64,000 nt of DNA from Acidimicrobiia bacterium (GTDB taxonomy: Bacteria > Actinomycetota > Acidimicrobiia > Acidimicrobiales > AC-14): assembly GCA_023265025.1 (NCBI GenBank), contig JAHFUP010000003.1, positions 62,001 to 126,000 on the forward strand, given 5' to 3'. The position numbers were made by a program, and so were the translations under genes. Positions within the stretch are counted from its first letter, which is position 1. Each line of letters begins with the position of its first letter. The notes beneath the pieces are model-generated. The model worked only from the letters and a program-made list of their open reading frames with translations. It searched no databases and was not told where the DNA came from. Shown piece after piece: positions 9,471 through 14,175 of the stretch.

Positions 9471-9857
9471 ATGAGACGGTCGGCCCGACACTACCTAGTC
9501 GCGGTGGGGGTCATCTCCGCCGTGGCTTGGCGCCGGCCGGTACGTCGGGTCGAAGTGGAAGGCGAGAGCATGGCGCCGGCGCTGCTCCCGGGTGACAGGC
9601 TGCTCGCCGTCGCCGGCCGGCGGGCCCGCCCCGGGGACGTCGTCGCCGTGGCCGATCCGCGTGCGCCGGGCCGGATCATCGTCAAGCGGGTGGCCGCCGC
9701 CGGGCCCGAGGGGGTCACCGTGTTGGGTGACAATGCCGCGGCGAGCACCGACAGCCGCGCCTTCGGACCCGTCCGGCCGGCGGCCGTCCGGGGTCGGGCG
9801 GTCTACCGGTACGCGCCGGAGCACCGTCGCGGCCGCATCGGGGTAGCCTCGGACTGA
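9471..9857 (+). CDS. sodX: Nickel-type superoxide dismutase maturation protease (S26 family)
   Basis: A 128-residue signal-peptidase-like serine protease that in known pairs removes the SodN propeptide. The catalytic Ser lies in VEGESMAPALLPGD and the Lys in IIVKRVAAAGPEG; the closing GDNAAASTDSRAFGPV segment is the normal box E of S26 proteases. The N-terminus has a short hydrophobic stretch that may be a membrane anchor. It is divergent from sodN, and its stop overlaps the start of the rsiG-like gene (TGATG). Confidence 0.9.
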   Translation: MRRSARHYLVAVGVISAVAWRRPVRRVEVEGESMAPALLPGDRLLAVAGRRARPGDVVAVADPRAPGRIIVKRVAAAGPEGVTVLGDNAAASTDSRAFGPVRPAAVRGRAVYRYAPEHRRGRIGVASD

Positions 9858-10393
9858 TGTGGACCGACGACGTCGACCGGGTGCTCGCTGACGACTACCT
9901 GGGCGACCTTCCGGCCAAACCGATACAGGACATCCGGGCCATGCGCGACGAGTGCCGGGCCGTCGAGGACAAGGTCTCGTACCTGCGCCGGCTGGTTCAA
10001 GGCCGGGCCGACATTGTCGCCGCCGACCTCCGCCGGCGGGCCGAAGGCGGTTCCCCGATCGACCTCGACACCCTCATCGCGCAGCTCCCCGACATCCTGA
10101 GCGACAAGGGCAGCGTCGGCGGCCCCGGCCGGCTCCCGACGGGCGTCGGGCCTCCCGACGACGAGGGCCTCACCGTCGAGCTCGACAGGGTCGCGGGCCC
10201 GGACCTGCTCGGGCACCTCGCGGAGCTATCCGACACCGAGGTCGCCGAGCTGGCCCAGCGCATCGGCGACCTGGAGCGCCAGGTCTCCGGGAGCCGGCGC
10301 GGGCTCTTCGGCCGGATCGACGCCCTGAACGGCGAACTGGCCCGCCGGTACGGCACCGGCGAGGCCGATGTCGCCGCCCTCCTCGACCGCTGA
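9857..10393 (+). CDS. rsiG: RsiG-like c-di-GMP-responsive anti-sigma factor
   Basis: A 178-residue helical protein of the aerial-mycelium-formation (RsiG) family. In Streptomyces, RsiG holds the sigma factor WhiG inactive when bound to c-di-GMP. The ligand motif E-x3-S-x2-R-x3-Q-x3-D is present exactly in the first helix (E37, S41, R44, Q48, D52). A second copy in the last helix pair has E140, S144, R147 and D155 with Phe151 in place of Gln. The two helices could form the antiparallel coiled coil that binds c-di-GMP. The partner sigma factor is not in the window. ATG 9857 overlaps the sodX stop. Confidence 0.8.
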   Translation: MWTDDVDRVLADDYLGDLPAKPIQDIRAMRDECRAVEDKVSYLRRLVQGRADIVAADLRRRAEGGSPIDLDTLIAQLPDILSDKGSVGGPGRLPTGVGPPDDEGLTVELDRVAGPDLLGHLAELSDTEVAELAQRIGDLERQVSGSRRGLFGRIDALNGELARRYGTGEADVAALLDR

Positions 10394-10441: not shown

Positions 10442-11689
10442 GTGCGCCGACTCGCAGTTCTCTCCTTCCACACTTCGCCGCTGACCCAGCCCGGCACCGG
10501 CGACGGTGGGGGCATGAACGTCTACGTGCGCGAGCTCTCGTCGGCCCTGGCCGGCGCCGGCGTCGACTGCGACGTCTACACCCGGGCGTGGCGGCGGGGC
10601 CTGGCCCCGGTCGTCGAGGTGGAGCCCGGCTTCCGGGTCCACCACGTGCCGGCGGGTCCCGAGGCGTCCGTCGCCAAGGAGGATCTCCCTCAGCACGTCG
10701 AGCAGTTCACCGCCGGCGTGCTGGACCGGATCGAGAACGCCGGCCGGCCCGACGTGATCCACGCCAACTACTGGCTCTCCGGCGTCAGCGGTCACACCCT
10801 CAAGCACCGCCTCGAGCTGCCCCTGGTGTCGACGTTCCACACCCTGGCCCGGGTCAAGGCCGAGGAGGCCGCCGAGGAGCACGACCGGCGGGCCAAGAGC
10901 GAGGCCGAGGTGATCGGCTGCTCCGACGCCATCCTGGCCAACTCCGCGGGCGAGGCGGCGCAGCTGGAGCGGTTGTACGGTGCCGTCCCCCACCGGATCG
11001 AGATCGTCCCCCCGGGCGTCGACCACCACCTGTTCTCGCCCGGCGACCAGCTGTCGGCGCGGAGGCAGCTCGGCCTGGGCAACGGGCCCGTGCTCCTCTT
11101 CGCCGGCCGCATCCAGCCCCTGAAGGGGGCCGACGTGGCCGTCCGCGCCCTCGCCGCCCTCCGCGCCGAGCGGCCCTCCGACCGCGCCGGGCCAGGGCGA
11201 CGACCGGCCACCCTGTTGCTGGTCGGCGGGCCGAGCGGCGCTGAAGGAAACGCCGAGCTGGCCCGCCTGCACCGCCTGGTTGCCGACCTCGGCGTCCAGG
11301 AACGGGTGCAGTTCATCGCCCCGCAGCCCCACGGACGGCTGGCCCTCTACTACCGGGCCGCCGACGTCTGCCTCGTGCCCAGCCGATCGGAGTCCTTCGG
11401 GCTGGTGGCGCTGGAGGCGGCGGCTTGCGGGACCCCCGTCGTGGCCGCGGACGTGGGGGGCCTGAGCACCCTCGTGACCCACGGGGTGAGCGGCTTCCTG
11501 GTCGAGGGCCGCGACCCAGAGGCCTACGCCGCCTACGTGGCCCGGCTGCTGGACGACCGGCCGCTGGCCCGGGCCATGGGCGCCCAGGCCGCGGCGTTGG
11601 CGACGACCTACCGCTGGTCGATCACCGCCGCCCGGCTGCGCCGGCTCTACGCCGACCTCACCGCCCGCCAGCTGGTCGAATGCCGCTGA
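10442..11689 (+). CDS. mshA: D-inositol-3-phosphate glycosyltransferase (mycothiol biosynthesis)
   Basis: A 415-residue GT4-family glycosyltransferase, first step of mycothiol synthesis: transfer of GlcNAc from UDP-GlcNAc to inositol 3-phosphate. The MshA-type N-terminus is clear (SFHTSPLTQPGTGDGGGMNV), as are HANYWLSG, the donor-site segments FAGRIQPLKGAD and SRSESFGLVALEAAACGTPVV (E-x7-E type). Mycothiol is made by Actinobacteria only, which supports the taxonomic reading. TAGGGT (10426-10431) sits 10 nt before GTG 10442, giving at most a very short leader. Confidence 0.9.
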   Translation: MRRLAVLSFHTSPLTQPGTGDGGGMNVYVRELSSALAGAGVDCDVYTRAWRRGLAPVVEVEPGFRVHHVPAGPEASVAKEDLPQHVEQFTAGVLDRIENAGRPDVIHANYWLSGVSGHTLKHRLELPLVSTFHTLARVKAEEAAEEHDRRAKSEAEVIGCSDAILANSAGEAAQLERLYGAVPHRIEIVPPGVDHHLFSPGDQLSARRQLGLGNGPVLLFAGRIQPLKGADVAVRALAALRAERPSDRAGPGRRPATLLLVGGPSGAEGNAELARLHRLVADLGVQERVQFIAPQPHGRLALYYRAADVCLVPSRSESFGLVALEAAACGTPVVAADVGGLSTLVTHGVSGFLVEGRDPEAYAAYVARLLDDRPLARAMGAQAAALATTYRWSITAARLRRLYADLTARQLVECR

Positions 11690-11782: not shown

Positions 11783-11811
11783 TTGCGTTCTCGCTCCGAG
11801 AGGGTTACATT
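11783..11811 (+). promoter_or_regulatory. Promoter of the M23 peptidase leader
   Basis: TTGCGT (11783-11788), a 17-bp spacer and TACATT (11806-11811). The start of transcription is predicted at about 11818, the first bases of the 11-bp helix of the leader. Confidence 0.5.
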
Positions 11812-11816
11812 GCTGC

Positions 11817-11985
11817 CGGGCCCGAGGGGCGGACTGGTCACCCCTTCGGGGAAGTGGGGGCGACCAAGAGGTTCCTCGGGCCCGCCCGCGTCCCGCTCCG
11901 GTCGACGCTTGCGCCGGGGGGTGCGCCGGTTTAGCCTTCGGCCCACTCAGCAGCGCCGGCGGGGCTGCCACCTTCGCTGGAGTCC
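11817..11985 (+). ncRNA. Structured 5' leader, candidate cis-regulatory RNA
   Basis: About 168 nt between the predicted transcription start and the M23 peptidase ATG. It begins with a perfect 11-bp helix (CGGGCCCGAGG 11817-11827 with CCTCGGGCCCG 11874-11884). Inside it nest a 5-bp helix (TGGTC 11835-11839 with GACCA 11862-11866) and the hairpin CCCC-TTC-GGGG (11841-11851), with purine-rich asymmetric loops. A further GCAGC/GCTGC hairpin lies near the ribosome site. It does not fit the c-di-AMP (ydaO) consensus as I know it, although that riboswitch often precedes cell-wall hydrolases in actinobacteria. No other gene is seen in 11690-11985. Confidence 0.45.
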
Positions 11986-13128
11986 ATGGCAAACCTGAAG
12001 ATCCCGGCCCGCGCGCTCGTCGTGTTGATGGTGATGGCCCTGGCCGCGCCGGCATTCGCCGACGCCACCCCGGAGGAGAAGCGGGCGGCCGCGGAGGCCA
12101 AGAAGGCCCAGGCTGCCGCGCAGCTCGATGTCCTCAAGGCCAACGACGACGAGCTGGAGGCCGCGGTCAAAGCTCTCGACGCCGGCGTGGCCATCCAGTC
12201 GGCCAACACCGACGCAGCCCAGCAGGCGCTCCGGGCGGCCGAGCGCAACCTGGGCACCGCCCAGGCCCGCCTGGCCAACACCGAGGCCCGCATGGCGGAT
12301 CTGCGGGGCAAGGCGGCGGAGGCGGCGGTCCGGGCCTACGTGCACCCCGGTGGGGACACGCTCCTGGAGATCGTGCGGGCCAAGGACCTGGGCGAGGCCA
12401 GCCGGCGCCAGGCGCTGCTGGCCCACGTGGTGTCGAGCGACCGGGACATCGTCGACCAGATGCGCGCCGCCCGCCAGGACGAGCAGTTCGAGAGGGAGAA
12501 CCTGGCCGAGGCGGCGAGCGTGGCGTCGGAGCGCAAGAAGGCGGCCACCGAGAAGCTGGCGACGCTGGAGAAGGCCCGCAACGACCAGGTCCGGCTCAAG
12601 AACGCCCTCGACGTGCGCATCTCCGAGGTCACCTCCGAGATCGCCGCCCTCTCGCGGGAGGAGGCGACGCTCTCCAACCTGATCCGGTCGCGCCAGGCGG
12701 CGGCCCAGGCGGCCGACGACACGCCGGCGGCGAACAACGCGCCGGCGGCGAAGGTTTCCGGGTCGGGCCTGGTTTGGCCGGCCCAGGGTTCGGTGACGTC
12801 CGGCTTCGGCTACCGGTGGGGCTCCCTGCACGCCGGCATCGACATCGCCAACAGCACCGGCACGCCGGTCCGGGCGGCCAAGGGCGGCACGGTGATCCTG
12901 GCCGGATGGAACGGCGGGTACGGCAACTGCATCGTGATCGACCACGGGGGCGGGTTCTCCACCCTCTACGGGCACAACAGCCGGCTACGGGTGAGCGAGG
13001 GCCAGCGGGTGGGCCAGGGCGAGCTGATCGCCGACATGGGGTCCACCGGCAACTCCACCGGTCCCCACTCGCATTTCGAGACCCGGGTCAACGGGAGCCC
13101 GCAGGACCCCATGCGTTACCTGCCGTAG
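11986..13128 (+). CDS. Secreted M23 peptidase with coiled coil (EnvC/NlpD-like)
   Basis: A 380-residue exported protein. It has a signal peptide (RALVVLMVMALAAPAFA), then about 210 residues of Ala/Glu/Lys-rich coiled coil, an Ala/Pro linker and a C-terminal LytM/M23 domain from residue 265. The zinc ligands are visible: HAGIDIAN (H and D) and HSHFE near the end; YGHNS supplies the other active-site His. Such proteins cut peptidoglycan cross-bridges or activate amidases during division. GGAG lies 7 nt before the ATG. The long structured leader suggests post-transcriptional control. Confidence 0.88.
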   Translation: MANLKIPARALVVLMVMALAAPAFADATPEEKRAAAEAKKAQAAAQLDVLKANDDELEAAVKALDAGVAIQSANTDAAQQALRAAERNLGTAQARLANTEARMADLRGKAAEAAVRAYVHPGGDTLLEIVRAKDLGEASRRQALLAHVVSSDRDIVDQMRAARQDEQFERENLAEAASVASERKKAATEKLATLEKARNDQVRLKNALDVRISEVTSEIAALSREEATLSNLIRSRQAAAQAADDTPAANNAPAAKVSGSGLVWPAQGSVTSGFGYRWGSLHAGIDIANSTGTPVRAAKGGTVILAGWNGGYGNCIVIDHGGGFSTLYGHNSRLRVSEGQRVGQGELIADMGSTGNSTGPHSHFETRVNGSPQDPMRYLP

Positions 13129-13132
13129 GGTC

Positions 13133-13927
13133 ATGACACGGCTGGTGGTCCTGGGCGGCGGGCGGATGGGCGCGGCCCTGGTGTCCGGCCTCCTGTCCTC
13201 CGGTTGGGCGCCGGCGGGGGAGCTGGGCGTCGTGGAGCCCGTCGCCGCCAGGCGGGACGAGCTCGAGGCCATGTTCCCGGGGGTGGCGGTGGCGGCGGAC
13301 GTCACAGCTGGCGCCGAGGGGGCGGTGGTGGCGGTCAAGCCGGGCGACGTCGAGGCGGCCTGCCGGGCGCTGGCCGGCGCCGGCGTCGACCGGGTGCTCT
13401 CCATCGCCGCCGGCGTACCCCTCGCCAAGCTGGAGTCGTGGCTCAACGCCGGCGCCGCCGTCGTCCGGGCCATGCCCAACACGCCGGCCCTCCTCGGCTG
13501 CGGGGCGGCGGCCATCGCCGCCGGCGCCGCCGCTTCCGACGCCGACCTGGCCTGGGCCGAGGAGATCCTCGCCGCCGTCGGCACGGTGGAGCGGGTGGGG
13601 GAGAAGCTCCTCGACGCCGTCACCGGCCTGTCCGGTTCGGGGCCGGCGTACGTCTTCCTGGTCGCCGAAGCCCTGATCGAGGCCGGCGTCGCCGCCGGCC
13701 TGCCCCGCACCGTGAGCGAGACCCTCACCATCCAGACGCTGCTGGGCTCCGCCCGCCTCCTCGCCGAGTCGGGCGACCGCCCCGAGGTCCTACGGGCGGC
13801 AGTGACGTCTCCGGGGGGCACCACCGCCGCCGGCCTGGCCGCCCTGGAGGCGAAAGCCGTCCGGTCCGCGTTCATGGAGGCCGTGCTGGCGGCGACACAG
13901 CGCTCCAAGGAACTGGGCCGGGGCTGA
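13133..13927 (+). CDS. proC: Pyrroline-5-carboxylate reductase
   Basis: A 264-residue enzyme for the last step of proline synthesis, reduction of pyrroline-5-carboxylate with NAD(P)H. The Rossmann loop is VLGGGRMGAAL, followed by AVKPGDVEAA, VRAMPNTPALLG and the highly conserved C-terminal signature SGSGPAYVFLVAEAL with TSPGGTTAAGL. The full family length is present. It lies 4 nt after the M23 peptidase gene and upstream of a BldC-like gene, an order also found in mycobacteria. Confidence 0.95.
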   Translation: MTRLVVLGGGRMGAALVSGLLSSGWAPAGELGVVEPVAARRDELEAMFPGVAVAADVTAGAEGAVVAVKPGDVEAACRALAGAGVDRVLSIAAGVPLAKLESWLNAGAAVVRAMPNTPALLGCGAAAIAAGAAASDADLAWAEEILAAVGTVERVGEKLLDAVTGLSGSGPAYVFLVAEALIEAGVAAGLPRTVSETLTIQTLLGSARLLAESGDRPEVLRAAVTSPGGTTAAGLAALEAKAVRSAFMEAVLAATQRSKELGRG

Positions 13928-13980
13928 GCCTCTGGCCGGAGGTGTCCTCGGGCGCATAGCATGGCTGTAGGCGAAGAGGG

Positions 13981-14175
13981 GTGATCCAACTGCCGTCCAC
14001 ATCAAGGTTCCTCACGGTCGCGGAGGTCGCCGGCCAGCTGCGCGTCTCCACCATGACCGTGTACCGGCTCATCAAGGCCGGCCACCTGGCCTCCGTCCGG
14101 GTGGGCAAGTCCTACCGGGTGCGCGAGGACGACGTCGACCGGTACCTGGCGAGCACCTACACGCAGGCGGGGTGA
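13981..14175 (+). CDS. bldC: BldC-like helix-turn-helix DNA-binding protein
   Basis: A 64-residue MerR-like/excisionase-type DNA-binding protein: LTVAEVAGQLRVSTMTVYRLIKAGHL forms the helix-turn-helix and SVRVGKSYRVREDDVDRYL the wing. This is close to BldC of Streptomyces, which controls development and binds direct repeats. GTG 13981 has GAAGAGGG just upstream; TAGCAT (13957-13962) is a likely -10. Its TGA overlaps the next GTG (GTGA). The position after proC matches the BldC homologue of mycobacteria. Confidence 0.85.
   Translation: MIQLPSTSRFLTVAEVAGQLRVSTMTVYRLIKAGHLASVRVGKSYRVREDDVDRYLASTYTQAG

Follow-up and report, generated by a model that had tools for sequence, protein, structure and literature searches.

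The c-di-AMP riboswitch (ydaO/yuaA) precedes cell-wall hydrolase genes in other actinobacteria. The hairpin described here, which lies in a window of 64,000 nucleotides from an Acidimicrobiia bacterium (assembly GCA_023265025.1, contig JAHFUP010000003.1, positions 62,001 to 126,000), also stands ahead of a cell-wall hydrolase gene in this genome; however, the riboswitch has a multi-helix pseudo-symmetric fold, whereas the window RNA is a simple rod and is not tied to hydrolase genes. The small SRP RNA (RF00169) is likewise a rod-like hairpin with a purine apical loop, but the window RNA does not match RF00169, and this identity was discarded because each of the eight genomes tested has a real SRP RNA elsewhere. 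6S RNA (RF00013) resembles the window RNA in being a rod with an internal loop and differs from it in that the window RNA is under half as long and misses the large central bubble; the window RNA has no match to the 6S model, which rejects this candidate as well, and the model found no 6S RNA in eight genomes that bear the RNA. The orphan structured RNA motifs of comparative genomics (PMC2864571, PMC8632094, PMC11109978) share with the window RNA covarying helices, a conserved loop, an intergenic position and no assigned partner, although Rfam contains no match to the latter; the main texts of PMC8632094 and PMC11109978 do not mention Acidimicrobiia.

Searches of Rfam 15 with the window sequence and 16 copies of different lineages gave no relevant match, even at relaxed E-values (chance matches only), in line with the preliminary description, which had seen no c-di-AMP riboswitch signature in this sequence. 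In open-access main texts, we found neither a description of the RNA nor any small-RNA work on this group. Since neither source shows a match, the RNA appears to be new. The reading we favour is a small RNA gene in its own right, not described before, that keeps the same place across a class of soil and water actinobacteria. We assign a probability of about 0.75 to a stand-alone small structured RNA gene of 70–90 nt that most likely shows the sequence GGGGAAG to a conserved partner in trans.

Promoter and fold of the window copy

The locus in the window comprises the following features, among which the promoter elements are predicted:

10442–11689, + strand: MshA-like glycosyltransferase gene, the constant neighbour (TIGR03449, 427 bits against a cut-off of 462.5; synteny)
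11783–11788, + strand: -35 element of the RNA promoter, TTGCGT
11806–11811, + strand: -10 element of the RNA promoter, TACATT
11817–11884, + strand: structured core of the small RNA, 68 nt (covariance models R1 and R2, covariation)
11817–11830, + strand: closing helix P1, 5' arm
11831–11834, + strand: internal loop, 5' side, GGAC (many copies have GGAN)
11835–11844, + strand: inner helix P2, 5' arm, with one mismatch (P2 pairs are among the best covarying columns)
11845–11856, + strand: apical loop UUCGGGGAAGUG, in which U-G, U.U and C-G close a GGGGAA hexaloop
11857–11866, + strand: inner helix P2, 3' arm
11867–11870, + strand: internal loop, 3' side, AGAG (many copies have NGAG)
11871–11884, + strand: closing helix P1, 3' arm (in some relatives, a U-tract comes next)
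11887–11892, + strand: conserved tail CGCGTC, 2–3 nt past P1
11909–11914, + strand: -35 element of the peptidase gene's own promoter, TTGCGC
11932–11937, + strand: -10 element of the peptidase gene's own promoter, TAGCCT
11986–13128, + strand: M23 peptidase gene (PF01551, E 2.2e-36), the next gene, outside the RNA gene

The RNA promoter, with its 17-nt spacer between TTGCGT and TACATT, lies where the preliminary description had placed it, and the RNA is expected to start near 11817. Of 73 copies, 72 have a TANNNT box 4–13 nt ahead of the helix (1.2 at random positions), and in 59 of the 73 it is accompanied by a TTG at 17 or 18 nt (0.26 at random, 0 on the reverse strand); the promoter is thus upheld beyond chance, and the proposed start at the helix agrees with it. 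The perfect 11-bp helix that had been noticed, CGGGCCCGAGG/CCTCGGGCCCG, is also in place and is extended by two G-U pairs and one C-G pair to a P1 of 14 bp. The family fold consists of P1, an internal loop of 4 x 4, a P2 whose arms mostly measure 10–12 nt and usually carry one mismatch, and the apical loop. Past P1, CGCG[TC]C occurs within the first 20 nt in 29 of 78 copies and in 0–6 in the other 20-nt bins.

Conservation and covariation

Homologous sequences were gathered from the M23 orthologues of relatives, upstream of which the same hairpin was seen, and the covariance check that had been suggested on such regions came out in favour of the helices. In an alignment of 72 copies, 92.5% of the pair cells hold a standard pair, compared with 75.0% in shuffles, two-sided changes occur at 21 of 23 pairs, and 270 cells are changed on both sides, compared with 74.5 in shuffles; the covariation score is 0.50 (0.18 in shuffles), and sliding the partner by one column lowers pairing to about 50%. 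These 72 rows were fitted to the model, and a second alignment of 67 copies was therefore anchored on the loop and the ends only, with a null in which substitutions were re-placed on the tree. The eight best covarying among all its column pairs are all proposed pairs; for three of them the count expected under the null is at most 0.02, and for a further three it is below 0.5. The loop GGGGAAG is kept in 124 of 133 distinct copies, and 97 of the 99 copies from within the class conform to the loop pattern. The folding energy of the window copy is unexceptional (z = -0.84, with 44 of 200 shuffles equally stable) and typical of such GC-rich DNA; single-sequence energy was dropped as evidence, and the case rests on comparison. 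At the level of sequence comparison, the hairpin is confirmed as a real, strongly conserved structured RNA.

Distribution of the family

About 100 distinct copies from roughly 50 families of the class Acidimicrobiia were collected, the window copy (11817–11884, + strand) being one of them. The model R1, built on 16 copies, matched at least 62 of 397 genomes of the order, and the second model R2, built on 72 copies, matched at least 143 of the 296 genomes sampled from the class, together with some families outside it; these counts are lower bounds, given that few candidates were scored per genome and that one copy (L223, in G013) was missed by the models. In this missed copy, the P1 sequence is entirely different, and the loop and the place are the same. 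The RNA sits behind the MshA-like gene, often with a YbjN-domain gene in between, and proC, HTH and SAM hydroxide adenosyltransferase genes are commonly found downstream of it. Upstream of the MshA-like gene, an RsiG-like protein (PF22802) is encoded at 9857–10393 of the window, a place that is kept in many relatives.

The copies outside the class have weak scores, and those of families f67, f99 and f102 are supported by adjoining the same MshA-like gene. A second outside-class group, in f107 and f73, is located elsewhere, away from that gene (L070, L168, L174, L176, L178, L179, L183, L187, L189 and L190); its core is nearly fixed (CCGAGUAGAUAACGCUCGCGUAUGGGGAAGGCG...GGCUCCAAAGG), with a conserved GGTYGCTYGGGRCC element immediately upstream of P1. 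The loop is lost in one outside-class sub-lineage (L162, L177, L181, L182 and L184). Additionally, L162, L175, L181 and L182 have in common a stretch of 22 nt, GGCCCCAAAGCCCAACGAAAGG, about 70 nt upstream of P1.

Independence from the downstream gene and alternative explanations

The preliminary description had taken the hairpin for a riboswitch or structured leader of the peptidase mRNA, about 168 nt long. In its general form, this reading holds that a riboswitch or protein-responsive leader controls M23, proC or an MFS gene by read-through or termination at P1. The RNA is indeed codirectional with and close to the next gene at most loci, being 17–130 nt before proC in many genomes, and P1 with a U-tract could act as an attenuator in some copies. 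However, the next genes are unrelated (M23, proC, an MFS transporter or a convergent Clp1-like kinase, depending on the relative), and the M23 and proC genes have their own promoters past the RNA: among the 23 M23 genes, 21 have a TTG-17/18-TANNNT promoter between the RNA and the start codon, and for proC a -10 box lies between the RNA and the gene in 37 of 42 cases (3% in the control), 5–10 nt ahead of a start codon, where leaderless mRNAs would be expected to have it. In the window, the second promoter, also with a 17-nt spacer (TTGCGC to TAGCCT), would allow the M23 mRNA to begin at about 11944, leaving it a 5' UTR of some 40 nt, so that the long leader contains a real structured RNA but need not be the leader of the peptidase mRNA. 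The second helix that had been noted near the ribosome site (about 11950–11968) lies in this short UTR and is not part of the conserved RNA. Moreover, in four families (L050, L063, L089 and L100) the cassette of promoter and RNA is reversed with respect to the genes around it and runs opposite to the MshA-like gene, whose end the RNA faces within about 140 nt in L063 and L089; within the genus g76, the cassette including its promoter is flipped in L100 with respect to L093 and L101. A conserved gene behind the RNA on its own strand was looked for in the inverted copies of the four families and was not found, and neither inverted copies nor those facing a convergent gene have an evident same-strand gene to control. 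A cis-acting leader is accordingly improbable, and its riboswitch version for the peptidase was abandoned; a structured RNA ahead of a gene is not by that fact the riboswitch of that gene, and the inversion within one genus argues against it here. Separately, a convergent Clp1-like polynucleotide kinase gene (PF16575) follows the RNA in two loci of family f63 (L064, 1602–2621, and L068).

A plain terminator or DNA hairpin that closes the mshA operon would account for a GC-rich hairpin directly after the MshA-like and YbjN genes. UUUU occurs within 16 nt past P1 in 17 of 136 copies (0.9 at random, 2 in the next bin), and, judged from these sequences, P1 with its U-tract resembles a classical intrinsic terminator in some family members; the window copy has no U-tract, and read-through into M23 is therefore possible there. 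Nevertheless, a terminator needs neither an invariant 12-nt loop nor a promoter fixed just ahead of it, and these invert together, which makes this explanation very unlikely. The CsrA consensus has GGA in a hairpin loop, which UUCGGGGAAGUG resembles, often with a further GGA in the internal loop, so that a CsrA sponge RNA could be imagined; CsrA (PF02599), however, was not found in the window's own genome or in most of the RNA-bearing genomes tested, and some genomes without a model hit for the RNA do have it. A sponge for CsrA is hence scarcely credible, and a GGA-binding protein other than CsrA may be the partner.

In the proposed course of events, a stand-alone RNA gene is transcribed from a sigma-70-type promoter of its own, and the RNA begins with the first bases of the closing helix. 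This RNA would form a single long rod of P1 (14 bp), internal loop, P2 and a GGGGAA hexaloop, with C-G, U.U and one variable pair as the closing pairs of the loop. It would end at P1, which would double as a terminator in part of the family. The window copy is probably transcribed and ended in this way in its own genome. Sequence changes are tolerated in the helices provided that pairing is kept, but not in the loop, a pattern that fits an RNA acting in trans or in an RNA–protein complex; the rod would thus most likely present the loop to a conserved trans partner, either a protein or another RNA. That the loop hardly varies while the helices vary freely suggests a single partner of this kind, and it makes a pull-down directly feasible. 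A more far-reaching version is tentative and rather doubtful: the RNA would be an ancient, core non-coding RNA both in Acidimicrobiia and in some other lineages of Actinomycetota, working in an RNA–protein complex or a housekeeping RNA–RNA contact through GGGGAAG, with a cellular role beyond those of known bacterial RNAs.

Candidate target sites and further observations

The loop complement CACTTCCCCGAA was considered as a target; its sole occurrence in the window's genome is the RNA gene itself, and outside the RNA in relatives the matches are scattered and mostly unrelated-looking, with no supported target. A second candidate, CACTTCCC, which keeps a constant position of about -60 relative to the neighbouring HTH gene, was rejected because it occurs at just 7 of 52 loci; the alignment of these regions suggests that it is part of the promoter region of the HTH gene. 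A promoter-like region belonging to this small HTH gene, which follows proC, lies at 13920–13985 of the window and at orthologous sites (CTTTCC... GGCGTACAGT ... GGCGGAGAGGGGTGATTCCA) and is common to many relatives.

In one locus (L180, 2001–2414; G103:C66), four tandem copies of the RNA with a period of 114 nt stand behind one promoter, with an MFS-like gene downstream. The last three are identical in score and sequence, and the array is either a recent duplication or an assembly effect. Finally, a genome of the same genus contains a second hairpin (L229, near 1500; G001:C73:39161) that has the inner helix and loop of the window RNA in surroundings that are unrelated in other respects; it may be coding or a paralogue.
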